Shown here: positions 4,383-55,061 of the stretch, piece by piece
How positions within the stretch are numbered: position 1 is the stretch's first letter
Layout of the letters: every line of letters begins with the position of its first letter
DNA from: Sacculina carcini
Lineage: Eukaryota > Arthropoda > Thecostraca > Sacculinidae
Reading direction: 5' to 3'
Assembly: GCA_916048095.2 (NCBI GenBank)
Contig: OU696570.1
Location: 5,509,518 to 5,573,517 of the forward strand
DNA: 64,000 nt
Notes under the pieces: generated by a model
Told to the model about the DNA's origin: nothing
Database searches by the model: none
What the model saw: only the letters and a program-made list of their open reading frames with translations
Program-made: the position numbers and the translations under genes

Positions 4383-4385
<3 letters not shown>

Positions 4386-4431: not shown

Positions 4432-4432
<1 letters not shown>

Positions 4433-14735: not shown

Positions 14736-14861
14736 AAAACATGATAATAACTTTAAAACTGCATTTAAATACTCATAACACTGTTTTACAGTATAAAATA
14801 TTAATATCAAGCTTAATTATTATCTGAATCATAAATCTTATTATGAAATTTCAAGATATGA

Positions 14862-16988: not shown

Positions 16989-17098
16989 GGTCTCATTTTG
17001 AAGTTGACTATTCTCATTTTGAAGTTGACTATTCTCATTTTGAAGTTGATTGTTCCCATTTTGAAGTTGATTAGTCCCATTTTGAAGTTGAAATGGTA
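16989..17098 (-). repeat. Right terminal inverted repeat (five 21-bp units)
   Basis: Reverse complement of the left end, unit by unit, ending GAAGTTGAAATGGTA followed by TA. Confidence 0.88.
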
Positions 17099-17100
17099 TA

Positions 17101-30036: not shown

Positions 30037-30433
30037 TGTAAAAGGTGAAGCCGAACGAGACTATTCCAGGATGTATTATTGCTGATAAACAATGAAGAAA
30101 CGAAGAACACCAAGCAACAACGCAGAAATATCAAACACAATGCACACACGCGCAACTCGCTCTCTAACACCACCACACACGACACACTCTGTCAGCTCAC
30201 TGACGCAATCCCCATTCACACCATAAGACGACATTCGATACAGCCAACACCCGAACATACAAACAAGTGCAAGGATGGTCTCACGCTCCGCCGCGCGCTG
30301 CAAACTCAGCGTCTCGTCAAAACTCAACGAACGCACGTGCATATGCAGCGTGCGCTCCTCTCACATGCATCACTCAAGATTCACAGACACACACATAACA
30401 TACATAGCTAACGCCAACAACTCACAACTCACA
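30037..30433 (-). repeat. 3' LTR of element C
   Basis: 397 bp; on the element strand it starts TGTGAGTTGTGAG and ends CCTTTTACA. Preceded by the target duplication AGTAT. Confidence 0.95.
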
Positions 30434-30453: not shown

Positions 30454-33425
30454 TCACTCAATCGATGAATCACCATCGTCATCCGCGTACACCTCGTAGT
30501 CGCCAAATCTCGACGGCATGCGCACCTGTCTTCTCGGCCTCCAACCATTCTCTCCATGTGACGCTTCCTGTCCTCTTGAAGACGCCACTTCTCCATAGAC
30601 CTCCATTGGGGGCTCCTCATCTTCGGCTTCCTCCTCCTGTGGTGGCCGGCGCTCGCTCTCCCCCGTCTCACGTGGTCTCACATTACTGACATGCCGGTTC
30701 ATTCCATTCACCTCGACCACAAGGTCAGACACAACCCTGGAAACAACGCCTTCGTCGCTCACCGCGTCGCACCGCTCCCCCGGCCGCCGAACCCAAACGC
30801 GATCGCCCACTTTGAACTTGCTGGTGATAGTAGCTGTTTCACGCCGTGCAGGCTCCTCATCCGACATCCTCACGGCGTAGCGATACAACAGATCCACAGG
30901 CCGCCGATTTGCTCCGTTCGACTTCGTCGGCGACAAGTTGTACAGCATGACTGCCTTGAGAATAGAACACCGCTTTCGGGCCGCAATGGTTTTGACGGTC
31001 CTGTGACAACGCTCGACTATGCCACATCCTCCAGGTCGGTATGCACATCTGTAGCGTAGCGTTACGTGCCACTTCCTCATGGCCTCCAGGAAAACTTCAC
31101 CTCGAAATGACGTATCATTGTCCAGAAGCAATTCGGTAGGTGGACCACGTTCACTGAACACCTCGTTGAAAACTTCAGTAACTTCTTGGCTGCTCCTGGA
31201 ACGAAGCTTCTTCCACACGGTATAGCGTGAAGGTCCACAATCGATCAGGGAAAGATAGAGCGAAGAACCACAATGAGTAAAGTCAGCAGACAGTCTACTC
31301 CACACCTTGCTGACACTCAGCTCACCCTTCTTCCACTTCGACGGCGCTGGACATACCGAATTGCAGATGTCGCATGACCTCACGACCTCCGCCACCTGAC
31401 GATTAGACACGAACAATTTCTTCCGCCTGCAGAAATATCTGGTTCGATGTACACCAGGATGCCCAGTCGAATGGTGGATTTCCTTGACTGCAGCGAGGAC
31501 ATCACCCACAACTCCAACTGCACAGGTCGATTGTCCCACCCTCAGCCAGGATCCAGGGACACGGGTGAGAACATCGGCTTTGTTTTTTGAAGACTCCACC
31601 TTGTGTACACGAACCGTCAGACCGTATTCGGAAATGATCTCTCTCACCATTTCCAGCCGCCGCCTTATCAATAGTTCACCAGACGCAACAGTCTTCATTC
31701 GCTCTCTCGCAGACAGCAGACCATTCATCCACGAAAACACAGTGGCTGAGTCAGTGAATAGGTCGATGTTCTATTAAACTTCAGACTCACCGCCAATCCC
31801 AGACCTTTCACCACTGAATCTAACTCGCTGATGTTGATGTGCTGGGAATCGTTCCTGAGCCAACATGCATCCTCCAAAGTCTCGCCATTGATGTCCACCA
31901 CAACACCCAAGGCGATGCTGCTGGCGTCCACCCACACATTTGCCGAGTCGCCTTCAATTTTCCAGACACCTCGAACAGGGTCGCATTTTTCAACGCGTGA
32001 CAGCAACGACATGACTATACCACGCAGACCGTCATCAGACACCGGATCGTCCCACCCTGTAGTGAATTTTGTCGCCAGTCGTTTGACAAAAGAGGCCGCC
32101 ACCCGCAACCATCCAGCAACAGGGTAATGCGACACGAGTCTGCTGCATAAAGAAAACACAGTGCGTCGAGTCAGCACCTCAGGGCACTCTCCGATGTCGT
32201 TGTCCCTCTTCCACCGCAACACATTGCCATTCTTGTACACAAACAATCCCAACACACGCGCTCCCTGATTCAACTTCTCTATTTCTTTGCTTTCAAGTCC
32301 AAAACGTTCAAAATGACGCTTGACATACTCCGGTGACACGATGTCAGCATCCACAATCAAATCGTCAACATAAGATGAACATCCTTGATACACGCTTTCA
32401 TCCTGACTGAGCACCTCATTCACCACAGTCTGCATGATCATGGGTGCTGCACTGAGACCGAAACCCAGCCTTGTTAGGCAGTACAGCTGACCTCCATACC
32501 TCACTGTCTGGTAAGGCCAGAGAGAGGGGTCCACTTGAATCTGAAGATATGCCTTTTTCAGATCGATGATGAATAGGTTTTCACTTTTCCTCCTCCAGAC
32601 TCTCAATTTCTCATGGCACACGTCCGCGTCCGCCGTGAAGTTGTCCACGTACTTGTTGAGCTCCCTGAAATCCAGGACGGGCCTGACCTTTCCTTTGTTT
32701 CGCTGCACGACGGCCATGAGTGGGAGCAGACAGCGCGGGTGACCATGCACGCTCTCATCATAAGGAACAAGCCACTTGTTCCTGACCCACAAATCCAGCT
32801 CACTCTCAAATGCCTCGAGAGCCCCCTCTGGCACACGATATTGCGGTGTTTTATTATGAAACTTTTGGGGCTCCTCTTCATTCACCCACCTCCACTTGCA
32901 TTTCCACCTGCCCATGCTCCGGTCAAAATCAACTCCGTGACCCAGTTTACACACCTGAAGATCAGGTTCAGCTGCGCAGCACGACTGTGACGGTAGCACT
33001 CCAAACGACACTTTGCTGTCAGCATCGACACTCACTCCTCCTAGAGCAGATATCACGTTCATGCCGAGAATAGCGCTGAAGTTCATGGGCCTTTGTTCAG
33101 TCACCAACACTTCCACTGTGACCGATCGACCTCCAATCGTCACACAACACTGCGCCACACGTGAACACACGAAACTCGCACCACCCAACACATTCACCAT
33201 CATCCTCTCAGGTGTCCACGATTTACACACAGACCTGGCTACTATACACCTCGAACATCCCGTATCCACTGAAAAATCACACATGTGCCCGTCAATCGAC
33301 ACGTTCGCAGTGGGCAGCGCCTCGTTGTTCATTGCGGAGAAAGTACCGGCGCCGATGAACCTTCTCCTTCGGAGTTTTCCGGACAGTATCTGGCGATGTG
33401 TCCCATCTTGGCACATCGAAAACAC
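30454..33425 (-). pseudogene. pol region of Gypsy element C (protease, RT, RNase H, integrase)
   Basis: The order on the minus strand is: aspartic protease with VDTGCSRCIVA (near 33250), RT with VRPVLDFRELN, DLKKAYLQIQVD and YVDDLIVDAD (32690-32330), RNase H with VWVDASSIALG and the acidic HINISELDSV block (31940-31810), and an integrase with ADFTHCGSS, LLLDNDTSFRG and GIVERCHRTVK (31290-31000), followed by a basic tail. Products would process Gag, copy RNA to DNA and integrate it. The domain order is Ty3/Gypsy, with the same lineage as D and the remnant at 38700-39660. Long stretches are open; fossil with about one break. Confidence 0.88.
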
Positions 33426-34051
33426 TTCGTGCCGGACATTCTCTTTGGACAGGATCTACTCCAGTGACCCGTCTCTTTGCACACGAAACACCTCGTAGAC
33501 GACACTGGAGCACGTCGAAGCACCGCCTGCTGTTCCGCCGATTTCGCCGCAAGACACGTCACATTATCCTTCGTCTGCAGAACCATCCGCGTTCTCACAA
33601 CGATGTCATTGATGGTCAAGTTCTCCGAAGTAGCACTTGCCCGTATGCTCGCAGCAACATCCTCAGGGAGTCCACTGACAAATGCGCACTCGAGCAGCGA
33701 ATCCGACACATTCCCGAACGCCTGGGCCAGCCTCCTCAGGTCTGCGACGAACACATCCGGTGATTCGCCGGGGAGCAATCGCCGATTTTTGAACTGCTCG
33801 TAGGCTGCGTGCTTGTTCAAGCCGAAAGCATCGTAGAGAGCTCTGCGAGTTTTCTCGGCTGATTTTCTTTTTTCATCAGGCAGCTGTGACCACACAACAA
33901 AGGCTCCCTTCGACAGTCTCAGAGGAACAACACTCATGATGTCGACACTTTTCAAGCTGCACATCATCTCGGTCCTCGTCCACCACTCCACCACATCACT
34001 ACTTCCATCAAACTCCGGTATTAACCGGGCGTCGAACGAAGCCGACTCCAT
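33329..34051 (-). pseudogene. gag of Gypsy element C
   Basis: ATG 34051 opens 240 residues: a capsid-like region beginning FDARLIPEFDGSSDVVEWW, then two CCHC knuckles, CFVCKETGHWSRSC and CFRCAKMGHIARYC, near the end. It overlaps the start of the protease/pol frame by about 100 bp, the arrangement used by many Gypsy elements to express pol from gag. The ATG lies 19 nt after the primer site, consistent with a short leader. The frame is open. Confidence 0.9.
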
Positions 34052-34070: not shown

Positions 34071-34082
34071 GGCCGGTTAGCT
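34071..34082 (-). other. Putative primer-binding site of element C, complementary to the 5' end of tRNA-Ile
   Basis: On the element strand AGCTAACCGGCC directly follows the LTR end ACA. It is the reverse complement of GGCCGGTTAGCT, the first 12 nt of tRNA-Ile(AAT) in many animals. The position and the length of the match equal those of the tRNA-Phe-like sites of B, D and E1. Confidence 0.7.
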
Positions 34083-34479
34083 TGTAAAAGGTGAAGCCGA
34101 ACGAAACTATTCCAGGATGTATTAAAGCTGATAAACAATGAAGAAACGAAGAACACCAAGCAACAACGCAGAAATATCAAACACAATGCACACACGCGCA
34201 ACTCGCTCTCTAACACCACCACACACGACACACTCTGTCAGCTCACTGACGCAATCCCCATTCACACCATAAGACGACATTCGATACAGCCAACACCCGA
34301 ACATACAAACAAGTGCAAGGATGGTCTCACGCTCCGCCGCGCGCTGCAAACTCAGCGTCTCGTCAAAACTCAACGAACGCACGTGCATATGCAGCGTGCG
34401 CTCCTCTCACATGCATCACTCAAGATTCACAGACACACACATAACATACATAGCTAACGCCAACAACTCACAACTCACA
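34083..34479 (-). repeat. 5' LTR of element C
   Basis: 397 bp, three differences from the other LTR; followed by the target duplication AGTAT. Confidence 0.95.
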
Positions 34480-34560
34480 AGTATCTATGTCAGATACATT
34501 TGATTTATGTACGTTCAAATACCTTTTGTATAGCAAACAGCCTGCTGGTACGTATACGAG

Positions 34561-35460
34561 GCTGGTTAAACCACTCGATTTAAACTGTTTTTTTAAACCG
34601 TGGCTTTTTCAAAATATTTTTTAAACGGTTTTCGTAGATGTAGAGGCTTAGAAAAAAATTGCCGGCATATCAAGGAAAGTTGAACCAAATTTATTGGTTT
34701 TTTATTAGTAACCTGTATTTAGAACTGGTTTTATGGATGATGGTTTCTTTGATGTAGTAATTTGTGTTCAAAAACCTTTTTGTACATTAAATATATTTCC
34801 TCAGTCGTTATTTTCCTACACGAAAATATTGCCCGTTTTTCTGGTCAGGATTGCCACTCTGATTAATGCGACCCGCATATATTTGTAGTCTCATTAGAGA
34901 CACTAAGTTTGTGTGTATATTTGTAATATTTGTGTTAATATTTGCAGTGTTTGTACTTTTATTTTTGCAAATAATTGATCTGCTGAATGAAATTATGAAA
35001 CTTATTATAATCAACGTAGTTCATTTCTGGTAGGAAAAAAGTAATATGTAAAAAATAATAAATAATTATGCCACCTGCTGTTTTATAAAACAGTTTCAGA
35101 TTTTAGCATAAAAACGGTTCTCAAACCCTGCTTTCTTACACAATGATTAACTCAATAATTGAATGCAAAACTGTACTATACGTAGAAGTGCCGCACAGTA
35201 CCGTGCAAACAATGTTATTAGGCCTTTCAGACACATTATAACACTTTTATTGTGCATATTAAATGATAATTCAATTTGGTAGGGTCAATATTAGCGTAAA
35301 TAACTCATGTTTTGATAAAAATAATTTATTTAACATCCCAAATATATAATTTCCATAGTTTGAATTCTTTACATGACCCTTCAAAAAAAAACAAAAAGAA
35401 CGTGTTTTTGGGCGCGTTTTTTTTTGGCAAAAAACGTTTTTTTTCAGGTCACATCTCTAA
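34561..35460 (+). repeat. Interspersed repeat M, copy 2
   Basis: Aligns with 12061-12947 along its length with small indels, in the same orientation, ending CAGGTCACATCTCTA. Non-coding. It lies in intron 2 of the host gene, about 80 bp from the end of element C. Confidence 0.75.
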
Positions 35461-36296
35461 ATATGACACTAACATTAACTAAAAAATTGACCCACCCTAA
35501 TGCACACTTTGCAAGCACACAAAACAATCATAAAATCACTGTGTACAAAGCAATTGACATAATAAAAGACATAACACAATTGTGTGCGTATGCGTACATG
35601 CCAAACAGTGACACGGAGCGTAGTTGTAGTTAAATATCGTCTGTTTGTAAGCTCGTGGACGTAGTGGACTTCAAACACCAGCTGAATATATTAAGATCAA
35701 GTGGAAACACCAAGAGTATATCACACACAGTATAGTACAGTTGGCAATTGGTGGGAGCGAAGTAGGAATGATTGTGACTGAACAAGATTGTGTAGTGTTG
35801 TTGTATCGTTCCGTGCGGCCGCGCGGCCGTGCAAAGCGGACACTTCGATGGGCGGAGCTTGTTTGACAATTTGATGGTTGTGCGAATGAACTGGTTGGTT
35901 CGAAGGAATTCAGGGGTGCTGGGTTGAATCATCGTTGTGTATTCAATCATTGTGTGTAATCTGTAAGGTGTTAATATACTCAGCTGTTGTGTTATTATTC
36001 GGTCACCAACAACACATTTTGTCAATTAATCAGCAAAAATTATAGTCGACTTCGAAACAGTCAAGCAGGCACCGAACAATTCGAAAGCGTACACAGTAAG
36101 ATGTTAATGACAGAAATTACGAAACATATGCAAATTGGACAATGAGCAATATGCGTTGTCGCCTTCATTGACAATTTTATTCATATTTAGCAGTGAAAAT
36201 CGGGTGTCACAGAGAGGATGTAGAAGGAATGTGGAATATTGCATATACTGTCATTTGCACGTAATTTATTCTGTTCTTATTTACTGAATATTTCAG
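35461..36296. other. End of host intron 2; no gene seen
   Basis: A GC-rich palindrome, GCGGCCGCGCGGCCG (around 35817), sits in a stretch that could be part of an old LTR (35640-36030). The intron ends ATTTACTGAATATTTCAG, a good acceptor. Confidence 0.4.
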
Positions 36297-38096
36297 CTTT
36301 TGGATATTGTGGGGCCGTATATTCTGCACGGCGAGCTTCTTTCATCACCTTTGTACAAGCATGGAATGCACGATGGATACTACATCTACCAGAGCTCTGA
36401 CAGTGGCCTGACGCAGTGGCGTTTATTGAAAGTTCCCCGTACAAGGTCTACGCTAAGTCAACTTGTTAGTTCAAAAAAAGAAACATTCATTCTGGCTTCT
36501 AACAGCAATGCAGATATTTCATCGAAAAATTGGATGTTGGAAACTATGCCATCTGTACCAATAGAGATCAGTGTTGAACGACACCTTTTGCATAATATAT
36601 TCTGTCCCAGTGGAAGCTGGACAATAAGAGAAAAATCTGTGCAATACAATGATTGGACGGTGATAGATAGATTTCATGCAACAAATACATTTAAGTACGG
36701 TAGAATGACATACCAGAGTGAAACTAGGATATTACACTTGGATGACGATGGAAAATGGATATTGACTGACAAAAATACTGCAAGTGCGTCGACAGATGTT
36801 TACAAGTCAAGTGTAGTGGTAGATAACGTGGAAGAAATTATACAGCTTGAAAGCACCAATGAATACAAAAAAAGCAGTGTGCAGCTGTCATGCACAATGA
36901 TTTCTGATTTGTCGTGTGAAGCAAACATATGCGCCGGTCAAACATGTGAGGTATTCGGAGAAAATAGCATGTGCGTGTGTCCATATGTGTTCAAGGACGC
37001 CAAATGCAGCGTGAAAGAAGAATGCGACCGTCCACCGTTATATATAGGAAAAGCAAAGTTTATCGGATTCAGAGCGGGACTTGCCGCTTTTGAATGCAAA
37101 AAGTCACATCATCCTCCTGAGAATTCACACTATACAATGAAAAAACGCTGGTACAGTCCTTGTGTAAATGGAGCATGGATAAAGCCCGAATGTAAGCGCA
37201 ATAAAGTGGTATATAACACCGACGTCTCAGAGCGTTGCACAACTCGCAACAGGCTTTGTTTTTTGGTATATATGGCTTCAGAAAAAATAGTATTTGATGT
37301 ATTCATGGGTATCAGAATAAATTGCAGGTTTTGTCATCTCATAATTAAATCGAAAGCATTGGGTAGATGGCATGGAGAAGCCTGTATGGTCTTTGATTAT
37401 GAAACTGGAGACGGAGCAAGCTGGGAAATTAGTATACAATCGCGCATTTCGGCTCAAGCACCCAGAAAAGCGCTTGATTTAAAAGGAGCTCAAAGTGGCA
37501 GAGCTGTCGTGGACGTCACTAATGCCGGAGAAAGCTTTGATTTCATTCTGGAGAATAAGCACCCCGGCTATATGCAAAATATTAGAATTGGATTATACAG
37601 TTGCAATTATGCAGATGAGACGGTTGAGCCCGCCACCACTACAACAACTACAACAACCACAACTACCACCACTACTACAACTACTACTACAACAACTACA
37701 ACAACCACAACCACTACAACTACAACAACCACAACCACTACAACTACAACAACCACAACTACCACTACTACTACAACTACCACAACAGCAACTACAACAA
37801 CCATAACCACTACAACTACAACAACCACAACTACCACTACAACTACAACAACCACAACTACCACTACTACTACAACCACTACTACAACTACTACTACTAC
37901 CACCACTACTACAACCACGACTTCAACTACCACCACTTCAACCACTGCAACTACCGCCACTACAAGTACTACTGCAACTACTACAACTACGACCACGACT
38001 ACATCTACCACCACGACAACTCCTACTACAACCACTACTGCAGGAACTACAGCTGCATCTACAACACCAGGTGAGCAAAACGTGCCAAAATGTTAA
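36297..38096 (+). CDS. Host gene, exon 3: repeats, EGF-like, sushi-like and threonine-rich mucin-like region
   Basis: Opens in phase 0 after TTTCAG. Residues about 43-85 complete a Tyr/Trp-type repeat (GPYILHGELL, DGYYIYQS, QWRLL), and a second, similar unit lies near residues 150-200 (YGRMTYQS, LHLDDDGKWIL). An EGF-like module with six Cys (C-x4-C-x4-C-x8-C-x-C-x8-C) is at about 247-280, and a sushi/CCP-like module follows (C-RPP ... SPCVNGAWIKPEC), to about 343. An unrecognised region of about 130 residues (beta-rich, Cys pairs) comes next, then roughly 140 residues that are nearly all Thr, a likely O-glycosylated stalk. No transmembrane segment is seen. The frame ends at TAA 38094-38096, but a good donor (CAG/GTGAGC) at 38071 suggests that the gene continues. 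Probably extracellular; function unknown. Confidence 0.82.
   Translation, partial: LLDIVGPYILHGELLSSPLYKHGMHDGYYIYQSSDSGLTQWRLLKVPRTRSTLSQLVSSKKETFILASNSNADISSKNWMLETMPSVPIEISVERHLLHNIFCPSGSWTIREKSVQYNDWTVIDRFHATNTFKYGRMTYQSETRILHLDDDGKWILTDKNTASASTDVYKSSVVVDNVEEIIQLESTNEYKKSSVQLSCTMISDLSCEANICAGQTCEVFGENSMCVCPYVFKDAKCSVKEECDRPPLYIGKAKFIGFRAGLAAFECKKSHHPPENSHYTMKKRWYSPCVNGAWIKPECKRNKVVYNTDVSERCTTRNRLCFLVYMASEKIVFDVFMGIRINCRFCHLIIKSKALGRWHGEACMVFDYETGDGASWEISIQSRISAQAPRKALDLKGAQSGRAVVDVTNAGESFDFILENKHPGYMQNIRIGLYSCNYADETVEPATTTTTTTTTTTTTTTTTTTTTTTTTTTTTTTTTTTTTTTTTTTTTTTTTTTATTTTITTTTTTTTTTTTTTTTTTTTTTTTTTTTTTTTTTTTTTTSTTTTSTTATTATTSTTATTTTTTTTTSTTTTTPTTTTTAGTTAASTTPGEQNVPKC
37633..38060 (+). 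repeat. (ACN)n triplet tract coding for threonine
   Basis: Mostly ACA/ACT/ACC codons over about 140 codons, with scattered Ala, Ser, Ile and Pro. Codon identity is mixed, so the Thr run is probably selected and not a pure slippage microsatellite. The opposite strand is open as poly-Val, which is a shadow. Confidence 0.95.
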
Positions 38097-38700
38097 CCAA
38101 AACCGTTTTTACATTACATTTGCGAGTTATGGTGTCTAAATGCGATCTTTTAATGAAAGCTAAGATTAAAATTTTCAAGACCTGCATAAAGTAATACCAG
38201 TAATATTGAAGCTATGCATATTGTATTTAGTATTTTCAATGTGTTTATGTGTTTCATGAAATGGTTTTGCAGTTTGCCTGTAATGGGGGGTTACAGTACT
38301 ACGAGTGAAGGTTTAAATATAGAATGGTGTTCTGCTCAATTACGTGTTTTAGAGTGTATGTTTCTATAGTGTCTGCATTTTACGCCTGTTTGCACCGTAT
38401 CATGCCGCTATCGCGCCGCTTGTCCTGTTACATGCTGATTAGACATGTTCAATGAAAATCTTCTCGATTTTATTCCCTCCTGCAAGGTTCCAATGATTGT
38501 CGAGCTGGAAAAACCAAAAAATACATTTATTTTGTGCTTAAATATATATTATATCGGTAAATATCCATCTTGCTTAAAGGCCGAACCCTCACAATGAGCA
38601 CTAACCGAGAGGGCATATTCTTGCTCTACGGTCTGAAACGTTTAAATATGTCTCATGATCAACAATTGGTTGACGCCCTAGTACGTTGTCGTGGTCTTCC
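38097..38700. other. Downstream of exon 3; nothing recognised
   Basis: AT-rich, with no open frame of interest and no clear polyadenylation signal close to the stop codon. It is consistent with a further intron. Confidence 0.5.
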
Positions 38701-39660
38701 GTAGAGTGAGTCACTCAGCCAATGAACACTGATTTCGAATCTGTCATTAGTCGAATACTTTTCATCTTCCATGCAGCCGTCAAATGCATGCCTTTTAGCA
38801 CTGCATCCAACTCAGCGATGTTGATATGTGAGTCACAGTCCTTGCGTAACCAACAACAATCTTCAACAATACTGCCATCTATGTGGTGTGATCGTGTGCA
38901 GTGAGAGAGAGTGTGTGTGTGAAAGATTGTGTGTGCGTGAACGTGTTAGTGTGTCTATATGTGATAGTGTATGGTTGAATTGTATATTGCGTGCGAGAGT
39001 GTGTGAGCAAGTGTGTATAGCTGTTTCGGTGAGTGTGTGCAGTTGTTTCGGTGTGTGTGTGTGTGTGTGTATGTGCTTGTAGAGTATGCTTGCCCCGCGG
39101 CGGCGAGCGATTGACCGGCTCGCCGCTGATTGGTTGTTGCGGCGGGTGAGGACTGTGTGCGCGTATGTGTGCTCCCGTGTGACACGGTGTGAGCGTAGAG
39201 TTGTGTTTGTGGTGCGATCGGAGTGTGACGTCTTGTAGGCGCGCGTGGGGCCGTGATGCCCACGCGCGCCTGTCTGGAATATATTTAGATTTTTTGTTTG
39301 TTACAATCTACCTCTAAAGCCACCCCAGTGGCTAGTGCCAGTGAACCAGTGTCAACCCAAACCACCGCTTCTTCGCCCAGCACTCTCTATCTTCCTTTCC
39401 AAAGATCGTTTTTTTCACCTCTGGTGGGCATCACCAAAAATTGAACGTAAACCTTCATCAGTAATCTCATAATCCCAATTATTAGTTATTGCAGCGGTTC
39501 GACGTTTCAGATATGAAGCTGCCGGTCTCGAATACGCGCAAACAAGCAAATGTCCGGTAATCTGGCCGCACCATGATAACACCACTCTTCTACTCAATCT
39601 CGAGGGCAGAGGAAGTATTTCTTTGGCTCTTCGCCAAATGATATTTCCATTCTCACTTCT
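38700..39660 (-). mobile_element. Gypsy remnant I (RT-RNase H segment), split by a solo LTR
   Basis: The minus strand encodes the RT-RNase H connection (39410-39640, matching the segment of element C that runs from its RR-VFSLC block to DDGLRGI) and RNase H (39310-39390 and 38720-38880, with VWVD at the start and the CDSHINIAELDAVLKG block). The RNase H is interrupted by the solo LTR at 38882-39305. Same lineage as C and D. Fossil, incomplete; older than the LTR that split it. Confidence 0.8.
38882..39305. repeat. Solo LTR with 5-bp target duplication ATCTA
   Basis: 424 bp from TGTGGTGTG to TTGTTACA, flanked by ATCTA on both sides (38877-38881 and 39306-39310). The Gypsy RNase H coding sequence continues on both sides, giving direct proof of insertion. 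It has GT-rich runs and two GC-rich hairpins: GCGGCGAGC/GCTCGCCGC near 39099 and GGCGCGCGTGGG/CCCACGCGCGCC near 39238-39270. A solo LTR forms by recombination between the two LTRs of an element. The TTACA end resembles element D. Confidence 0.88.
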
Positions 39661-39667
39661 CACTTGC

Positions 39668-39712
39668 ACTTCCACACACACACATACACACATACATACA
39701 TACATACACTAT
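39668..39712. repeat. (CA)n/(TACA)n microsatellite
   Basis: ACACACACA and TACATACATACA runs at the edge of remnant I; the next 400 bp hold nothing recognisable. Confidence 0.9.
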
Positions 39713-40099
39713 ATATTCACACATGTCTATCCCATAAGCACCGAATACTCGTAACAGCACATGAACACTCGCACGAACAAACCCTCTTCTACAGTTGTGA
39801 ACAGACGCGCATACACTCAGCGCACGCACACATACACAAAACAAGACATCAATTAAACAGTGAGGCTCAAACAAACGACAACACTAATACAGTAACATTA
39901 GCAAATTGAATCATTTGCTCCTGCAAGAAATATTGCGAGTAATTATTCAAGAGAACGTACCATATTAGGTAAAAATTAGAATTAAAATAAGTGATCATAT
40001 GCTTTCCACAGGACATACACTTCACTGTCACTCATACATCTAATATACATGTGGCGTATCATATGTGCATTTATCTCACTTTCTGTTTGTAGCTCATTT

Positions 40100-40500
40100 G
40101 CTCTGCTTCCAATTGTCAGTATCATCGTGAAGCCAACTGTACGTATGTGTGTCTGTATGTCTGGGAGTTGAATGTGTTTCAGTGTGAAGGTGTGTGCACC
40201 TGGTTTATATGCTTGTCTGTGGCTTCCAGACGGGAATTCGCTCGTTTGGTCATGTGAAGGGTGTATGTCTGTTGTGTTGTATGTTTGGGTATGTTTGTTG
40301 ATGTGAGCGATTGTGTGTCATTATGGGTCATGTGACCAAGCTTATATAAATCCGTACCGCGGTGATCGGGATGTCAGTTCAGTTGGGTCAGCTCGTGTGT
40401 CAGTAATCGTATCTGATCGCCGCATCAATATATCTCGCCGCTGCAATCGAACCGAAGTCTTCTTGTGTGGACCAGATAGCCACATATTGGTGCCGCGAGT
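40100..40500 (+). promoter_or_regulatory. Candidate 5' LTR with TATA box, initiator and canonical primer site
   Basis: TATATAAA at 40343-40350 is followed 31 bp later by an initiator-like TCAGTTC (40374), then an LTR-like end GATAGCCACATAT and TGGTGCCGCGAGTG from 40488, a TGG-type primer site. The promoter spacing is right for transcription starting inside an LTR. Left limit unknown. It may belong to F (43177-47115) or to G; no matching 3' LTR was identified. Confidence 0.5.
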
Positions 40501-40725
40501 GAGTGGCGGTGACTTATATTCTTCAACTTTGCACCCTGTACATCAATCGCCTCATATTCTCATCGTCTCATGTTTTCCATCACTGCTCCCAAATGACCCA
40601 ATCGAAGGAGGAATCGGAGTGGAGGGCCGTCAGTCGTGTTTGGGACAGGAGTGAGGACGGACTGCACTGTGCGCGTACAACAATATTGTAACGCGCCAGC
40701 CATTGTCGGGGCCATCTCCCTTACG

Positions 40726-41430
40726 ATGGACATGGAGACGTCTACCTCTGAACTACCACCAATACAGCAGGAACTCGAAGGCCCAGTGTTGCACGTGGCG
40801 ACGCCGCCACGACCGCGCAGACCGCTAAAGACCAACAAAACACCTTCGTGGGCCATCCCCCTCGTCAACGCGGTGGAGGAGTTGCAGAAAAACGCCGAGA
40901 AACAACACTCGGACCAAAACATCGGTACGACCCCGTCGCTGCTCAAGCTCCAACGGGTGGCCCGAGCTACGTCCCCTGACGACGACGATTCGGATTACGA
41001 GGCCGCCAGCACCGCGTCGGCATCTACGCTGCCAGCTGAGGACGTAGTTCTCACGTGGGGCCGCCGGCTCAAACACTACCTGCGAGACAACGGCCAAACC
41101 CTCAAGAAGCGAGAAATCGCTGAGATCGAGGGGGTACTCTTGATTGGGCGCTACTTCGCGCAGTTGACACCAGCCGACAAACACTGGTACAAGCGTCGGG
41201 TGGAAATTCTACTCACCGCCGACTTGTACGGCTGGGACACCGCGCTCAAGGCCGAGCGCTCGCAAGAGGCCGGCAGCCTCAAACTCAATATCTCGAGGGA
41301 ACTCGTCGAAAACTCGAGACCGCGTCTGTCGGCTCGACCGCCGCGCACCGATGGCCGCCCAGCCGTCGCCGGAGGAGCCCGGGCTGGCAAGCCCCGGGCT
41401 GGCAGACCTCCACCACCTGCTCGAAAATGA
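40726..41430 (+). CDS. Element G ORF1: Gag-like protein of a DIRS-like retroelement (fossil, frame open)
   Basis: ATG 40726 gives 234 residues. The acidic/Pro-rich N-terminus is followed by a helical middle (VVLTWGRRLKHYLRDNG, IAEIEGVLLIGRYFAQL) and a very basic Pro/Arg/Gly-rich tail, typical of a nucleic-acid-binding Gag-like protein without zinc knuckles. It overlaps ORF2 by 80 nt in another frame, as in elements that use frame shifting or reinitiation. GC content is clearly higher than in the surroundings. No homologue is named with confidence. Confidence 0.6.
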   Translation: MDMETSTSELPPIQQELEGPVLHVATPPRPRRPLKTNKTPSWAIPLVNAVEELQKNAEKQHSDQNIGTTPSLLKLQRVARATSPDDDDSDYEAASTASASTLPAEDVVLTWGRRLKHYLRDNGQTLKKREIAEIEGVLLIGRYFAQLTPADKHWYKRRVEILLTADLYGWDTALKAERSQEAGSLKLNISRELVENSRPRLSARPPRTDGRPAVAGGARAGKPRAGRPPPPARK

Positions 41431-43174
41431 GCAGGTGTGGGACCTCCTGCAGGGATGCGCGCAACGCTTGCAGGAGGTACCGTTAGCAGGGCGACCTGAC
41501 GTCGCCCTGCTTGGCCAAGGCCAGTACGCGCAACTCCAGCCGGTGCAGCGACCTACCGACTGGCTGGACGATTTGCTCACCGAGCACTTTCAGGAGGAGG
41601 CCATCCCGGCGCTGGATGCCCTGGAAGACATCGACCTTACGCAGCCACAAAGTCCCACTCAGGATGAGGACTCCTGGGGCCGCCTAATGTCGGCGCCCTG
41701 GGATATCATTGGCAACGAAAACCAATACTACACGTCCTCAGGAGACGAGGCAGCCTCAGGAGCTAGCCCGGCCGCTGCATCCGACAGTGAAGAGGCCGCC
41801 GACGCCAGCGGTCTCAGCTTTCTACGAGACCTTCAGACCGGACCTCAAGGTAGGCTCAAGCCACCCAGCTTTCGGGACACGAACATCATGCGGCCTCATC
41901 CCCACCACGATGACATGGTGAACAATATGTTACGAAAGGGCGTACGTACGCACATTCCGGCTCAGGCCCTGGGTGAATGGCACCCAACCAGAGCGTCTCG
42001 CGACATGGATGCCATCATGACGGCGCTGGTCGAAGCCGACATCCTCCGACCGTCGACCTCCAGACGGGGTCCTACATTCAGGATTTTCGCCATCCCCAAG
42101 GCGGACGGCTCGGCGCGCGTCATCTATGATCTCAAGCCAATCACGCCGTTGCTGGCGTCCTACAGCATCAAACTGCCGCGCCTGCAAGAAGCATTGATGC
42201 TAGCAGCGGCTCATCCGGGGTGGCAGCTGGTAAAATTCGACATGCGCCACGGCTTCTACCAGCTGCCACTCAGTCCTGGACTGGCATCCTTCATGCGGGT
42301 GGTTTATCGGGGCCAACACTTCGAATGGACTCGCCTACCCATGGGGTTAGGTAGTGCTCCAGCCATCATGCAGCGGGTCAGCTGGTCCACGGCACGCGCC
42401 ATCGAGCGACATTGCCCACCGGTGCGGGTGGTGCCCTACCTCGACGACTTCCTCGTCCTGGGACCGTCGCACGTGCTTCGCACCATTCCGGCCTACTTAG
42501 TTCAGCTGGGGATTGCAACAAACCCGGCAAAGTGCCAGTGGACGCCCACGAGAACTATCGAATTCCTCGGCCTGCGTCTCTGCATGGACCCGCAACCGCA
42601 AGTGCAGCTGCCCATGAGCCTCAGGTGCTCTCTACAGGCGGCGATACGGACGGCGCCCACCAGAAACTTCGCCTGGCGACTGCGCCTGGCGGGCTACGTC
42701 TCGTTTGTTCTGCGCATTCTACGGCTGCCGACTAACATTGTCACCCTCATTCTACATTACCCAGAGAAGGCCCGACATTACGCAGCCGGCTTCACAGTGC
42801 TCCAGCCCCTGCGAGTGCCGGGGCCGGTCGACTTCATGATCGCCACGGACGCGTCTACCATCGGGACTGGCTTGGCGACCCGCGACCGCGCCTGGGCCAT
42901 ACCATGGACCGCATGCGCCACCAATATCTACTTGGCGGAAATGCGCGCGGCCATCATGGGTCTGGCGGTCGCACGCGCCCAAGGCAGCCAACATGCCTTG
43001 GTCGCCACCGACAACATCGGAGTTGCCTTCAACTTAGCCAGACGACGGATCCCGCTGGCTATGGTAGCATCATACTGGCGCCTGGTGGGCCAGATGCCAT
43101 TTGTCGTGGCATACGTTCCTACCTCCCTCAACCCGGCTGACGGCCCGTCACGCAAAGAAAGGAATCCGAGATGA
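41351..43174 (+). CDS. Element G ORF2: reverse transcriptase-RNase H protein, DIRS-like (fossil, frame open)
   Basis: One open frame of 607 residues from ATG 41351. After a 180-residue acidic N-terminus come RT blocks (FAIPKADGSARVIYDLKPI, VKFDMRHGFYQLPLS, RLPMGLGSAPAIMQ and the catalytic VPYLDDFLVLG at about 355-365), a thumb (IEFLGLRLCMDP) and RNase H (IATDASTIGTGLA, YLAEMRAAIMG, VATDNIGVAFN), ending YVPTSLNPADGPSR. No protease or integrase, and no tyrosine recombinase, is seen. The blocks resemble DIRS-type or hepadna-like RTs more than the Gypsy RTs here. The frame is uninterrupted, unlike its neighbours, so it inserted late or was kept. Confidence 0.75.
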   Translation: MAAQPSPEEPGLASPGLADLHHLLENEQVWDLLQGCAQRLQEVPLAGRPDVALLGQGQYAQLQPVQRPTDWLDDLLTEHFQEEAIPALDALEDIDLTQPQSPTQDEDSWGRLMSAPWDIIGNENQYYTSSGDEAASGASPAAASDSEEAADASGLSFLRDLQTGPQGRLKPPSFRDTNIMRPHPHHDDMVNNMLRKGVRTHIPAQALGEWHPTRASRDMDAIMTALVEADILRPSTSRRGPTFRIFAIPKADGSARVIYDLKPITPLLASYSIKLPRLQEALMLAAAHPGWQLVKFDMRHGFYQLPLSPGLASFMRVVYRGQHFEWTRLPMGLGSAPAIMQRVSWSTARAIERHCPPVRVVPYLDDFLVLGPSHVLRTIPAYLVQLGIATNPAKCQWTPTRTIEFLGLRLCMDPQPQVQLPMSLRCSLQAAIRTAPTRNFAWRLRLAGYVSFVLRILRLPTNIVTLILHYPEKARHYAAGFTVLQPLRVPGPVDFMIATDASTIGTGLATRDRAWAIPWTACATNIYLAEMRAAIMGLAVARAQGSQHALVATDNIGVAFNLARRRIPLAMVASYWRLVGQMPFVVAYVPTSLNPADGPSRKERNPR

Positions 43175-43185
43175 TTCCTTTCTTT
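43154..43185 (+). other. Perfect 13-bp hairpin at the stop codon of element G ORF2
   Basis: AAAGAAAGGAATC (43154-43166), loop CGAGAT, GATTCCTTTCTTT (43173-43185). The TGA stop lies at the loop/stem border. It may mark the 3' end of G or a fold in its RNA. Confidence 0.85.
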
Positions 43186-46100
43186 TCAGCTTCACTCGTA
43201 GCTGTGAAACCGCCTCAGTTCAGCCCAGAATTAGTGAGTGGGTGAATCGCGATCATGGACGCGCAATTCCATCTAGCGCTATTACGGCGGAAGATACGCG
43301 ATATCTTAACGCGGTCGCAGCACTTCCACCGAAGTCTCTGCGCGATCGAGCCAAGAGGTGAGGGACAGCCACAATTACACCGAACTGAAGAAGGCGTTCC
43401 AGGGGCTGTTCACCAGAAGCAAGGCTGAGCGATTTGAGGAAATCCTCACACAGTTCTCACTTGCAGGTCGACCATCAGAGGCATTATCCGAGCTCCGGAG
43501 GACTGCAGCCAGTGTGGGTGCCGGCGAGGACCTGGTCCGGCATGAATTCCTCAAGTCGCTTCCTGCAACAATCACCACAGCCCTGGCGGCTCAGCAGGAC
43601 CTGTCGCTCGACCAGTTGGGGTCCTTGGCTGATGAACTTGTGCCGCTAATGAGTACATCATGTCTGTCGGTGGGTGTCCAGCGCTCAACAGATCATCAAC
43701 TGCCGCGAGCCAGTCAGTATCAACAACAGCAAAATCACACCAGTCGCACCTCTCTGCCAATCGGACTGCGTCCAATTCACCAAACCCAGAGGCCACAGGT
43801 ATGTCGGGTCCATATTTATTATGATTAATCGGCCCGGACCTGCTAGCCGTGGTATCGGTTGCCGTCAAAACAGTCTGGCCATCAAATTCAGCCATCATCC
43901 CTAGCAGCCTTTCCGGCGCGACCGTCGGAAAACTAGAGAGGCAAGTCTTGGTCCAAGCGACACCAGGCCTGCCACTTCTAAAAGTCGCAGCCAAGGTGTG
44001 TCTTGCCACAATCTCTTTTATAGTGGATGCGGGAGCTGGCGTGTCAATTTTGCCTCCTCGAATAGTCAAGTGGGGAATACAGTCTACCACAGAAAAGCTT
44101 TCATCGGCAAGCGGTGCAGCCATTACTGTGCAAGGTGAGGTCTACATTAAAATCGCCATAAAGGGTCTCAGGCGCAGTTCAACATGGACTTTCGTGATTG
44201 CTGATGTCACATAACCACTACTCGGCGATGATATTTTGTACCATTTCAAACTTGTAGTTGATTGCGGAACAAGTGCGTACATAATTCATTAACACTGTTG
44301 CGTGTACCAGCGGGGGTTTGTGCGTCCTTCTCTTCTTGTCTCGTGGTCAACGACGCAAAGGGAGTAGTGGAGCCCGCCCGCCAGCTGATCATGGATTTCC
44401 CCGAGATGACTACACCCAAACAGTGAAGTGCCGGCGGCAGCAAGTCGGTGATGCACAACATCGACACTGGCAGCTTGTCTCCAGTGAAGGCCGCTCGCAG
44501 ACCTTTCACACCCGAGAAACAGACATCAATCAACGCCGATATTGACTCCCTGTTGAGAGTCGGTGTGGTCAGACCATCAGACTTTGCTTGGTCGTCACCA
44601 GTGCACCTGGTTGTCAAGGAATCTGGCGGCTGGCGACTCACAGGTGACTTCAGAGCTTTAAGCGCCCAAACAAAAAGCGACAACTACCCTATACCGCACA
44701 TACATGACTGTTCAATCAAACTTAGCCGAAAAACTGTCTTCTCAAAACTGGATGTATTGCGGGCATATCACCAAGTACCTGTAGCGCAGCAAGAGATCCC
44801 GAAAACGGCCATTATAACTCCGGCGGGGTTGTATGAGTATTTGTACATGCTCTTTGGCTTACGCAATGCTCCATCTACCTTTCAACGCTATATGGACGAA
44901 ATTTTCCGAAAATGGAATGTGTTTTTGTCTATATTGATGATATTTTATTCTTTTCGGACAACATGGAAAACACAAGCAGCATCTTTGTCTCGTCTTTTAA
45001 ACTCTCCTAAAGAAGTGGTTGCGCATCAAAATGGAGAAGTGAGTGTTCGCAGCATAAAAAGTGGACTTTCTGGGCTACATCATCTCTGCATAAAGCATCG
45101 CTCCTGCGACAAGCAAAGTCCGAGTACTGGTGGATCAGCCACCCCCGTCTTCATCAGCCGAGTTGAGACGATTTCTGGGAACCACCGGCTTCTACAGAAG
45201 AATGGTCAAGTTTTACGCCACTGTCGTTCAGCCGCTCACTGAGCGCATCCGCGTTGAGCCAAGCAACAAGAATATGCAGCTCAACGAAGAGGAGTTTGCA
45301 GCTGTCAAAAAGTGCAAACAAGAGCTGGTGTCATCAAGAGTGCTGAGTCATCTACTTCCGGCGTGCACAACTTACCAGCTGGTCACTGACAGCTCACAAG
45401 TTGCCATCGGTGCTGCCATTCACCAAATGGTGAACGGCGAGCCTGTGCTGTGGTAACTTTTTTCCAGGAAGCTATCAGAAAAGAAAAGTGCAGTGCAGAA
45501 AAGATACTCTACTTTCGACAGATGGCTGATGGATGCCTTCCTGTCCGTCGTCCATTTCAAGCATCTGATCGAAGGCCAAGAGGTCGTGCTGTTCACCGAT
45601 CATCTACCGTTGGTTGGCGCTTTTCGCAGTACGAAGTCAGCCAAACTAGATAAACAGCAACGCCACTTGTCCGTGCCCACCGAGTACGTTTCCGATGTAA
45701 CATACATCAGACTAGCCGGAAACATTGTGGCGGACTGCTTGTCTCGACCAGTAGCCAGCGTTAGAGTAGACGTGTGGGACCTGCCCTGGATAGCGGCAGC
45801 CCAAGCTAAAGATGATGACCTCAAGCAATTGATGTCCAAATTGAAGCCTTACAAAATCAGCGGCGAACATGAGCTGTATTGCGAAGTTTCCAGTATTCAC
45901 CCACGGCCGTTCGTACCACTCAATTTCCACAAGAGTATTTACGCCAACTTGCACAATCTGTCACACCCAGGCGTGCAGAGAACTGTGAAGCTTGTTAAAG
46001 AGAGGTATTTCTGGCCATCACTGGAAGGCGACGTGAAAGAGTGGGCGAACACATGTTTGGCATGTCAACAGGCCAAAATCAGTCGTCACAACAAACCGCC

Positions 46101-47115
46101 TATTACTCCGCTCACTGCTGCATCTGGTCGATTTGAAACAGGGCACATGGACATTGTCGGCGCTCTGCCACCTCAGTGAATGTTCGGACATCCGTTCGCG
46201 AATCCACTGCGGTATGTGCTGGCATGTGTCGACAGAGCAACCAGGTGGATTGAAGCCGTACCCCTCTCTGAGTTAACTGCAGAATATGTCGCTCGCGCAC
46301 TCATCAACACATGGTTGTCTCGTTTTGGTGTACCTGTCTACGTTATCACAGACAGAGGAAAGCAGTTCGAAGTAGATCTTTTCCGCTACCTCGCCGAGAC
46401 CATCGGTCTTCACCGACTGCACACGGCAGCATATAGGCCGTGCTGCAACGGGTTCGTTGAACGACGACGCCGTGTGATCAAGTCGTCAATAATGACCCGT
46501 AAACAAGAATAGTTGCCTGCACTGCCTGTCGTACTGCTCGGAGTCCGCATGCTTCCATCGAAAACCGGCATAACCCCGTTCAGCGCGGTCATTGGCAGTG
46601 AGATAATGTTTCCGCGCATCGCCATCGATCGCGACAGTAGCAGCGACGAACAACACCAGTTCTTGAGAGAAGTGGCAAAATACATGGCCGAAGTGGACTT
46701 CCGAGTGCTCTCCGAAGTTTCATCTCACTGCAACCCCTCAAAGTATGATCCTGCTGGCCTCGAGCGGTGCTATCATGTGTGAGTACGCGTAGATTGAGTG
46801 CGCCATGCTCTCCAAGCGCCTTACAAGGGACCGTTCCGAGTTCTGCGGCGCAGCCCTAACGTGTTCACGATTGAACTGCCGTCTAGAGCGACTGAAAAAG
46901 TATCTGTTGCCCGGCTCAAGCCGGCCTTCAAACCGTTTCAGTCTTCTACCACGCCACAGCAGCACAGCCACATCAGCAATCAGACAGTGTTTGTACAGCG
47001 TCCCTGCACAGACGACACTTCACAGGGAAATCCATAAGTGAGCGAAACATACATCAAAACGCGCGCGGGACGAACTGTGCGGATTAAACCAAAACCAGAT
47101 TATATTTACTTTTGA
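43177..47115 (+). mobile_element. CsRn1-like Gypsy element F (fossil)
   Basis: + strand parts: gag from about 43187 (VAVKPPQFSPELV, DAQFHLALLRRKI, FLKSLPATITTALAAQQ) to 43830; a protease-like region near 43980-44214; RT from about 44480 (FAWSSPVHLVVKESGGWRLT, YHQVPVAQQ, LFGLRNAPSTFQ); RNase H near 45350-45660; integrase with zinc finger (LSHPGVQRTV ... CLACQ) and core (HMDIVGA, TDRGKQF, GFVERRRR) from 45950 to 46500; and a tail ending TRAGRTVRIKP near 47090. Gag and pol match the CsRn1/Kabuki branch known from flukes and insects. No LTR pair was resolved. Broken, at least half a dozen breaks; old. Confidence 0.85.
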
Positions 47116-48127
47116 AAAATATGTACAATTGTTTCTGAAAAAATATTTGTATTGTATTCTGCAGTATACGATATCGTACGTATACATTGTGCTCATATAT
47201 ATATATATATATATACATATATTATTTTCCGTGTGTTTGTTCTAAATATGCGAGAACATTGTACGATATTTCTCTGTGCCCATTGACAGGGCTATCCTGG
47301 TGGGTATTGTGTTGTATCTATACTATATATACTGTGTTACATGCTCAGTTTGTTGTGATAGTGTTGCGATGTATACCCTTCATATTCAGATATACAGGGT
47401 CTTATGAGTGTCAAGATCAATGCTACACATTAACTGCTGGCTACAGCGCAAAGCACCATATAGCGCACCTGAGTAGCTCCGCCCTCCGCAAGGGGAGTGA
47501 CTGTGGCGTATCATCCAGATGAGCTTGGTGAAAGCCTGGTTCCTCCACAAGAATATTCGTTAGGAATCAGGAAAAGCTATTTGTCCTCAGCTTCACGCGC
47601 GAGGTGGTGGTCTCGTATATGAAGGCCACCAATGGCAAGGACTCAATCATCTCAAGCGCGGAGATCGCTTCTCTCGCTGGACTGGCAGAGCGGCCTCCTC
47701 TGGTCTCCAGCTCCGACGTTGTCAGCTATATTCGCCTCGTGCGTGAACAGCAACGGCGATATCAGGGATCCGGTTGCAAGTCGAGCTCGCTGTCCTAATA
47801 CGGAAATTGTGCCAACAGTACGCTGTGCAGGTAGTGCTTCAATTCCTATCATACGACATAAATAATTACCGGCAGGCAGCTCGAAACAGTCCATTTCTTG
47901 TTCCCTTACGGACCAATTCGTCTTGGATTGAAACTATTGTATGTACCCGGAGGCAGTGGCAGCGCCAATAATTATCCGGTATGAGACTGAGGGGGCTAAG
48001 GAAAAGTATGCGGGGACTTGGGAAAGCATAAAACATGAAACAACTCTCGAAATATTCATGGTCAGGATTTTCGGTGTGCTCGGGGGATTTTTACATTTGG
48101 TTTGGTAAATTTTTGGGGAATTATAAC
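47116..48127. other. Non-coding stretch with (TA)n and an unplaced short frame
   Basis: (TA)n at about 47195-47218. A + frame at 47604-47798 (64 residues, KDSIISSAEIASLAGLAERP) has a protein-like composition but no recognised family, and stops follow quickly. It could be a decayed exon or element relic. Confidence 0.35.
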
Positions 48128-48275
48128 TAGGGATGTCAAAAAAGTAACCTAAAAATCAGAAAAATGTAATTTTATTTTCTAGAAAAATTAACCCAAAAAG
48201 TAACCTAAAAATAAGAAAAAGTAACTTTTTTTTCGAGAAAAAGTAACCTAAAAAGGTAACCTAAAATATATATAG

Positions 48276-48327
<52 letters not shown>

Positions 48328-49510
48328 TGAATATAAATATATAAATATATAAAAATATATGATTTAATGTTATTATCACTTTTGTATCTCCTTATCACAT
48401 GTTTATCGAGCCTTTGCTGATTAGCGCGCTATATTAAATACACGGTTTTCGTTGTTTGTTTGTGAACTTAAAAAAATAACCTAATAACCTATAGAAAGTA
48501 ACCTAAAAATAACCTAACCTTCGTAAAAATAACCTCCTTCAAAAAAGGTCAATTTCTGTTTGCAGTTCTGAAGGGAGAAAATACACCAGTCCTTTTCTTC
48601 TATCCTCTTTCCGAGTGGGTACTATTTTTCCACCCTATTTTCACAACAAACCACCAAAAATGACTTAATATTATTCGGCTAATTTCGCAAAAGGAGCATA
48701 ACCATCAAAATGCAATTTAAAGTGGAAAGCTAATGCAAAATTGAAATACACCAATTGCCAATGTAAATATTTTTAGTAATGGTTGCAATAATGTTCTTTA
48801 TATTGGTCTCTATCTCACGCCCTGAAAATCACGTGCTAATTCCTGTTCAAAGTATATGCGTAATGTCAAGTGCTACAGTGCAGTATCGGGTATAGAGAGC
48901 TCACACATCTTACTATATCACGCTCCAAACATCTCACAACACCCTCCGGTTCGTGGACATTTCCTAAAATAGAATGACGCTATCCTGCGTACCCGAAAAC
49001 GTATAAATATCGAGTAGCACAGATATTAAGGTGAATATCAATTGCTAAATCCTAACAGCAGAAATTTTTACATTTCTTGATCTTCAGACCTAATATTCCA
49101 TCTCTTTTCCCATTTAATCCTTATATATTCCGTTTTTGTGCCTCTTATCTGCAAAAATTCATCACACTTTGTGGTAAACTCACCTAATAACAAGAAAAAA
49201 TACTAAAGTTAACCTAATGATATAAAATAACCTAAAAGCAAAAAAAAATAACCTAACGATGAAATTTAAATTTTATTTTATATTTGATGTATTTATCACA
49301 ATCACAAAAACAGTTGCAGAAATGATATTTTCAGGGTGTAAGGAAGAATCCTGTCTCAACCACTGAATTAATTTATAATAATTCTAAATCATGCAACTAG
49401 GAACAATTGTGAAGTAAATAAAAGAAAAAGTCGTGGTTTCATTTTTTGGTCAACCAAAACAAAAGTAGATCATTACAGATCAAATTATTAAAAAATGAAT
49501 AACCAAAAAT

Positions 49511-49754
49511 TGTTGTATGTATTAGCATTATGATATTTACTTATTGTGTGCATTTGTATGAATGAAAGAGTCTTGCGTATGAAGCCACGTTATATATAAT
49601 TAAGCTGTAGAATTGTGTATTGCGTATTGACTAATGTTTGATGTTGCCATGGGAACGGATGAGGGAATGTTGAATTCTCACAATGTGCGTGGTTGTTGTT
49701 GTTCGGAGTGGAAATCATACCGACGTGTTTTGTGAATACATATTTTTCCTTACA
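49511..49754 (+). repeat. 5' LTR of element D
   Basis: 244 bp, TGTTGTATG to CCTTACA. Confidence 0.95.
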
Positions 49755-49766
49755 AGCTATTTCGGC
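49755..49766 (+). other. Putative primer-binding site of element D, complementary to the 5' end of tRNA-Phe
   Basis: AGCTATTTCGGC abuts the LTR end and lies 3 nt before the gag ATG (49770). It is identical to the sites of B and E1. Confidence 0.7.
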
Positions 49767-49769
49767 AAT

Positions 49770-50516
49770 ATGGCTAATGTTAAGTTGACAGAAGTTGTGC
49801 GGACGTTTGATGGCTCCAGCAATGTGAATGACTGGCTGGACAAATTTGATTTGATCGTCCAATTGAGAGGCGTGGAAAACCCTGAAACAGTGTTACCGAT
49901 GTTTCTCGAGGGTAGCGCACTTTCCGTGTATACTGAGCTCAGTGCGCAGCAAAAACAGGATATTCATCAGATCAAGTCGGCGTTGCTGAACGCGTATTCA
50001 GTGAATCCCTTCAAGGCGTATGAACAATTCTCGCAGCGAGTTTAGCGAGACGAGCCTGTGGATGTATACATGGCAGAGTTGCGCCAGTTGGCTCGCCTTG
50101 CCGGCATAGCCAACAACATACTGCTGCTGCGTGCATTTGTGGTCGGTTTGCCGTCGGCGGTGTCGCGAGAACTCAGAGCGACAGCTGGCATTGAAAGCAT
50201 GAATTTGTCTTCTGTTGTGGAGCGCACGAGAGCCCTCATGTCGGAGCTCCACGAGAATCAATCAGCAGCAGTTGCTGTCATTGGACCAAGGAATGGACCT
50301 GCACCCAGGCAGAGTGTTCAGTGTTTGGAACGCCGCGGCACGCACGTTGCACGATTCTGTCCGAGAATGCCAAATCGGAACAACAACAACAAATCCAACA
50401 ACAGACTTTGTTGGATTTGTGGCGAGCCAACCCATTTGGCTAGAGAGTGTCCATGCAGGCCGGGAAACGCCAAGGGAGAAGTTTCTGCGCCGGAAATTTC
50501 TCCAAGTTCTCATTAA
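49770..50516 (+). pseudogene. gag of Gypsy element D
   Basis: The ATG just after the primer site starts a Gag of the B/C/E1 lineage (VVRTFDGSSNVNDWLDKF, then RQLARLAGI, FVVGLPSAVSRELRA), with a terminal CCHC knuckle CWICGEPTHLAREC near 50410-50450. The pol frame starts before the gag frame ends. Fossil. Confidence 0.8.
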
Positions 50517-53326: not shown

Positions 53327-53345
53327 TGAGGACATCACGGGGAAG

Positions 53346-53589
53346 TGTTGTATGTATTAGCATTATGATATTTACTTATTGTGTGCATTTGTATGAATGA
53401 AAGAGTCTTGCGTATGAAGCCACGTTATATATAATTAAGCTGTAGAATTGTGTATTGCGTATTGACTAATGTTTGATGTTGCCATGGGAACGGATGAGGG
53501 AATGTTGAATTCTCACAATGTGCGTGGTTGTTGTTGTTCGGCGTGGAAATCATACCGACGTGTTTTGTGAATACATATTTTTCCTTACA
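53346..53589 (+). repeat. 3' LTR of element D
   Basis: 244 bp, one difference from the 5' LTR. Confidence 0.95.
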
Positions 53590-53785
53590 AAAAATAAAAA
53601 TACAAGCTTCAAGCTTCAATCAAAAATCCAATAAAATTAAGGAGATGATGAACCGAGGAAATAAACCGAGCCAAGTACACGTGATATTGTCACAATTAAC
53701 TATCAGCATTGGTGCTATCAGCTATCATTACCATCGACATTGTCAACATTGTCACCATCAACCAGATCACTGAGTCACTAATCAG

Positions 53786-55050: not shown

Positions 55051-55061
55051 CTAATCAGTAA

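Follow-up and report, generated by a model that had tools for sequence, protein, structure and literature searches.

Candidate primer sites complementary to the 5′ ends of host tRNAs in Gypsy-type retroelements of Sacculina carcini

The window analyzed here, by which we mean the whole 64-kb stretch of Sacculina carcini DNA, contains two retroelements, C and D, that are bounded by pairs of long terminal repeats (LTRs). Element C lies on the minus strand, where its 5′ LTR (34083–34479, 397 nt, TGT…ACA) and 3′ LTR (30037–30433) are 99.2% identical. The interior of C comprises a gag-like open reading frame (ORF) with zinc knuckles (33329–34051), an ORF with a protease-like stretch, a reverse transcriptase (RT) and the DUF7047 domain (PF23088) (31725–33425), and an ORF in which an integrase zinc-binding domain scores over the cut-off and an integrase core under it (30454–31740), all on the minus strand. 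Element D, on the plus strand, has a 5′ LTR (49511–49754, 244 nt, TGT…ACA) and a 3′ LTR (53346–53589) that are likewise 99.2% identical. These enclose a gag-like ORF with a zinc knuckle (50058–50516) and a pol ORF (51089–53326) with matches to RT (under cut-off), DUF7047, RNase H (RVT_3) and the integrase core, for which there are more than 1000 relatives in the database, with Argonauta and Petrolisthes among their sources. The domain order of zinc-knuckle gag, RT, DUF7047 and integrase is Gypsy-type in both elements, which have LTRs and an RT ahead of the integrase in pol, as expected of the Ty3/Gypsy group; the RNase H match is seen in the D ORF and the protease-like stretch in the C ORF. 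PF23088 is common to C, D and the source list of 25 aligned proteins, and the RT regions of C and D share 48% identity over 352 aa. D itself sits between long inverted arms (48123–55055; for example, 48850–49264 with 53916–54330, 89% complementary), which may belong to a foldback-type element into which D inserted.

In both elements, a 12-mer stands directly at the end of the 5′ LTR. Both LTRs of C run from TGTGAGTT to TTTACA and are flanked by the target duplication ATACT, and the LTR end is therefore ACA, with AGCTAACCGGCC (34071–34082, minus strand; GGCCGGTTAGCT in plus-strand letters) directly after it at zero gap. Both LTRs of D run from TGTTGTAT to CTTACA, and the 12-mer AGCTATTTCGGC (49755–49766, plus strand) adjoins ACA, again at zero gap. 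D is flanked by …AAAAAT and AAAAAT…, the A run blurring the length of its duplication. We refer to the C-type 12-mer as the Ile word and to the D-type 12-mer as the Phe word, for the tRNAs discussed below. The initial annotation had held that the second LTR fixes the boundary in C and D, and the near-identical LTR pairs, together with the ATACT duplication in C, bear this out. The positions that it gave for words adjoining ACA, AGCTATTTCGGC at 3036, 19966 and 49755 on the plus strand and GGCCGGTTAGCT at 34071–34082, are also confirmed.

The two remaining words belong to element B (3036–3047, plus strand), where the word lies within an open gag-like frame and whose family comprises 23 sampled loci, and to element E1 (19966–19977, plus strand), whose context is identical in loci L003 and L188. 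No second LTR of B or E1 was found in the 64-kb window, so their LTR boundaries are not fixed there. All four elements had been assigned to one lineage, which agrees with the RT identity of C and D but is not secured for E1, since its RNase H region is unlike that of D: the two gave no alignment (E 0.34), the E1 region matches other Pfam RNase H families, and it resembles an ORF of another element at 45493–46179 (40% over 113 aa). The gag-like ORF of E1 is B-like, at 27% identity.

Elsewhere in the window, element A (minus strand, 3907–9690) has LTR-like repeats and, as previously claimed, a conventional primer site, TGGTGGCAGCGC, at the LTR end. At 13962–17101, an ORF (15165–16313) that by eye resembles a putative Tc1/IS630-type transposase lies between inverted arms, each 124 nt long and built of 21-nt tandem repeats (93%). 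A further ORF (41351–43174) looks by eye like a putative DIRS-type reverse transcriptase, and a long threonine-rich repeat tract (37563–38096) forms the end of the ORF at 36300–38096.

The site is far more widespread than the four elements of the window. ACAAGCTATTTCGGC, which is ACA followed by AGCTATTTCGGC, occurs at 1844 places (924 + 920) in the whole genome, which comprises 264.4 Mb in 43 contigs; the reversed pattern, as a control, occurs at 0. The degenerate pattern ACAAGCTAHMBSSSC, with the Phe word excluded, occurs at 454 places versus 16 for its control. Among the 100 of these places that were listed, 82 carry the Ile word; CAGGCGC (11) was rejected as a site, its flanks being alike on both sides in all fetched copies, as was AAGGGCC (3), which also has like flanks on both sides and by eye resembles RT coding sequence. 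The last four comprise the Thr word described below, a Phe word and an Ile word with one change each, and one unexplained sequence. For the Phe word, 100 places were listed, of which eight came as loci, 40 more were fetched and three lie in the window. With identical contexts merged and one change in the word accepted, the sites from the fetched loci occupy 115 distinct contexts, with 10 clusters of at least three and 40 singletons or pairs. Most sampled contexts have only the word in common, their LTR ends and leaders being unrelated.

A partial element set (150 of 1957 PF23088 candidates scored, 50 upstream pieces examined) was also read from the coding side. Upstream of the PF23088 matches, the Phe word follows ACA or a similar triplet in 41 of 50 pieces (36 exact, three with one change and two with two). 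In the other nine, no ACA-like triplet is followed by a site: two of them contain the word without ACA, exact in L100 and with one change in L090, and seven are unaccounted for. Scans of viral contigs gave no relatives. Three loci (L153, L158 and L162) carry tandem sites, ACA and the Ile word followed by TGTAACA and the Phe word (which in L158 has one change), an arrangement that would result if an older site had gained a newer one ahead of it.

When compared to the host's own tRNA genes, of which we have a partial set (63 of 15013 tRNA candidates scored), the words correspond to tRNA 5′ ends. The own tRNA-Ile(AAT) starts with GGCCGGTTAGCT in 10 of 10 places found, and ARAGORN calls tRNA-Ile in the four of these loci that were submitted and again in a later run. 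The C word had been read as the reverse complement of nt 1–12 of tRNA-Ile(AAT), and the host's genes agree in every case. The own tRNA-Thr(CGT) starts with GCCGCTTTAGCT and the own tRNA-Lys(CTT) with GCCCGGCTAGCT; the complements of these starts also occur as sites, as described below. In all three tRNAs, nt 13–15 are CAG, which does not pair with the LTR end ACA, and a primer 3′ end at nt 12 therefore fits.

For the commonest word, the comparison is with animal tRNA-Phe, the start of which we take to be GCCGAAATAGCT; AGCTATTTCGGC would then be the complement of its nt 1–12, GCCGAAAUAGCU. No intact own tRNA-Phe gene was found in the assembly with four tRNA-arm patterns, a 13-mer search and BLAST, and the commonest word is thus unverified on the host's gene. 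The 13-mer GCCGAAATAGCTC gave 15 matches versus one for the control; ARAGORN sees no tRNA in any of the 15, several of which, judged by eye, resemble sites that have mutated. BLAST returned just two 3′ pieces of tRNA-Phe-like sequence (L122 and L123), both starting at nt 38 and without the 5′ part; L122 retains TTTCGGC, to which a 5′ strand of GCCGAAA would be complementary. The tRNA-Phe gene may be absent from the assembly, and we draw no conclusion that the tRNA-Phe of the host is different. On these comparisons, the identity of the site with a tRNA 5′ end has good support in the case of Ile, Thr(CGT) and Lys(CTT), and in that of Phe it is probable.

The Thr and Lys words come from a single Ile-type family, in which the 12-mer has been exchanged. 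Among 26 copies for which exact flanks were demanded, AGCTAACCGGCC is present in 23 (22 exact, one with one change), AGCTAAAGCGGC, the complement of the tRNA-Thr(CGT) start, in two (one exact, one with one change), and AGCTAGCCGGGC, the complement of nt 1–12 of tRNA-Lys(CTT), in one (exact). The Ile, Thr and Lys words sit between identical flanks, and the three swapped copies, when read directly at their LTR ends and in their leaders, prove to be of the same family as the Ile-type copies; each of the three has one additional base after the site. Four of the 12 positions distinguish the Thr word from the Ile word, but only two distinguish the Lys word from it, so that the Lys case carries less weight by itself. 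A distance of 19 kb separates the two Thr copies, which may be descendants of one event. The initial annotation had proposed tabulating site words against the host's own tRNA starts, and for this family the table yields matches to nt 1–12 of different tRNAs. The simplest account of the swaps seems to be that the site is copied from its primer and rewritten in the process.

A second trace of such copying may be the base that follows the site (nt 13). Counting ungapped members of at least 85% identity, nt 13 is the most variable of 70 positions in both of the best-sampled families, the 18 loci of family F3 (T8 A8 C2) and the 23 loci of the B family (C14 G7 A1 T1), and a second count gave the same picture, with one B-family locus outside the pattern. 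The 23 Ile-type copies have A12 C7 G4. Two families are constant, one with A in 7/7 copies and the other with T in 5/5, though an additional copy of the T family carries A. Synthesis that copies a primer to the 5′ terminus of a tRNA has no template for the next base, and nt 13 varies as if copying had run off the tRNA end. Together, the own-tRNA matches, the swaps and the variable nt 13 support, at the level of sequence, the earlier inference that these elements begin reverse transcription on tRNA 5′ ends, nt 12 being the 3′ end of the primer. We put the probability at roughly 0.83 that the 12-mers are primer-binding sites for host tRNA 5′ ends, with the primer ending at nt 12 and the site recopied from it.

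The variable base could also have a template if the primer were a piece of an incompletely trimmed pre-tRNA rather than a mature 5′ end, nt 13 then being copied from base −1. The own tRNA-Ile genes that were read have C, G or T at −1, and the complements G, C and A are the very bases found at nt 13 of the Ile-type copies. However, both tRNA-Lys(CTT) genes that were read have A at −1, which predicts T, whereas the Lys copy has C, and the nt 13 bases differ among families that carry the Phe word. A pre-tRNA primer is therefore unlikely in our view. Much less probable still is that the word is no primer site at all but a conserved motif, such as a peptide, a protein-binding site or a tRNA-gene remnant. 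In the B family (2887–3768) and in L100, the word does lie within an open frame, where it translates as AISA. Yet most sampled contexts share nothing but the word, the word abuts the LTR end in C and D, and the 12-mers switch to nt 1–12 of other tRNAs while the flanks stay unchanged. With respect to a peptide, the B word is within the gag-like frame and the D word precedes the ATG, so a single conserved peptide cannot account for both.

The other source of a primer would be the element itself, as in Tf1 and Tj1, whose sites are complementary to the start of their own RNA. The site resembles that of Tf1, as described in part of one report, in its length (12 versus 11 nt) and in its abutment to the LTR (PMC7175516). 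However, the best partner of the site in the whole LTRs of D and C, compared as LTR letters rather than from a mapped RNA start, makes 9 of 12 pairs with G-U allowed, which is within the shuffled range, and what the site tracks is instead the tRNAs, both in the swaps and in the own-tRNA matches. Because LTR complementarity is no better than in shuffles, we rejected self-priming for C and D, and we hold it to be very improbable as the explanation of the site.

The best reading is priming by host tRNA 5′ ends. The first 12 nt of the tRNA, consisting of the acceptor strand (nt 1–7) and UAGCU (nt 8–12), would pair with the 12-mer abutting the 5′ LTR, and with the primer 3′ end at nt 12, minus-strand DNA would begin at the last base of the LTR. 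Plus-strand DNA would then copy the primer up to the tRNA 5′ end, at times adding a base for which there is no template, and the old site would be replaced by this copy, which would account for both the swaps and the variability of nt 13. The least certain step is the making of the primer: on the model of Tf1, whose enzymology is the nearest, the RNase H of the element itself may cut the annealed host tRNA in place, after nt 12, though the primer may instead be a free 12-nt fragment. The four proposed primers (Phe, Ile, Thr and Lys) have UAGCU at nt 8–12 in common, and these last five bases would therefore still pair if another of the tRNAs took the place of the usual one. Mispairing in the acceptor part might then be tolerated and copied, producing the site of the new tRNA. 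We lean towards such Tf1-like trimming in trans of a UAGCU-bearing host tRNA, with an in-place cut and a site that rewrites itself, whereby families could change tRNA and exchange LTRs via the shared 12-mer. Two loci have structures of the latter kind: L057 and L174 have LTR ends like that of L004 (80 and 83 of 90 positions, respectively), joined at the 12-mer to other leaders, which are like those of L058 (60/60) and L192 (57/60), respectively. These chimeras may reflect plus-strand transfer between elements that share a site, which would give such products, or ordinary recombination.

When compared to canonical priming, the difference lies in the end of the tRNA that is matched. Canonical TGG sites also lie directly at the LTR end, whereas the sites of C and D begin with AGCTA at that position and match the opposite end of the tRNA. 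The copia site pairs with the anticodon-side end of the 5′ half of a tRNA. A half-tRNA rather than a tRNA 3′ end is described as the copia primer in part of one report (PMC5371799), and a passage on the fungal element FunCo1 describes a site complementary to an internal region of tRNA-Lys (PMC5445492). The elements studied here resemble copia and FunCo1 in that the primer would be a part of a tRNA other than the 3′ end. They differ from them in matching nt 1–12 of several tRNAs instead of an internal stretch, and C and D are Gypsy-type rather than Copia elements. With respect to the internal stretch of initiator tRNA-Met that characterizes copia-type sites, the words are instead complements of nt 1–12 of tRNA-Ile, -Thr(CGT) and -Lys(CTT), among fetched genes that do not include the own initiator tRNA-Met.

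Within the Gypsy group, the closest parallels are Tf1 and Tj1. In the passages concerned, Tf1 RNA pairs with the site through its first 11 nt and is cut by RNase H directly after them, before nt 12 (PMC7175516), and Tj1 self-primes with an RNA 5′ end that pairs with the site over 11 nt, the RNase H cut falling just beyond (PMC4600332). The present site likewise would pair with the 5′ end of an RNA that is cut just past the pairing, the cut here being a proposed one, but that RNA would be a host tRNA here, and it is the element's own in Tf1 and Tj1. Possible novel priming is also mentioned for Cryptococcus Tcn2-5 in the same Tf1 source (PMC7175516).

We found no description of sites complementary to tRNA 5′ ends in the parts of the open full-text literature that were searched, a scope with few subscription journals, and such sites may have been reported before. 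In the passages cited, the primers are a tRNA 3′ end, an internal piece of a tRNA or the element's own RNA. Searches for complements of tRNA 3′ ends would miss the sites reported here, despite 1844 places of one word in one genome. Since the primer and its 5′ end leave natural footprints in the swaps and in the variable base past tRNA nt 1, sequence data from other genomes can be used to test the mechanism. Two further questions follow: how a tRNA comes to be opened at nt 12, and whether such elements are acted on by 5′ tRNA fragments in the way that others reportedly are by 3′ fragments. In one source, retroviruses copy the primer tRNA during second-strand synthesis, and Ty1 and Ty3 strictly inherit their site (PMC7472051). 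The swaps in the Ile-type family resemble the retroviral copying, unlike the inheritance in Ty1 and Ty3, the copied stretch here being the 5′ 12 nt of the tRNA. On the best reading, priming by tRNA 5′ ends is a variant of priming by tRNA fragments, and an apparently new one.
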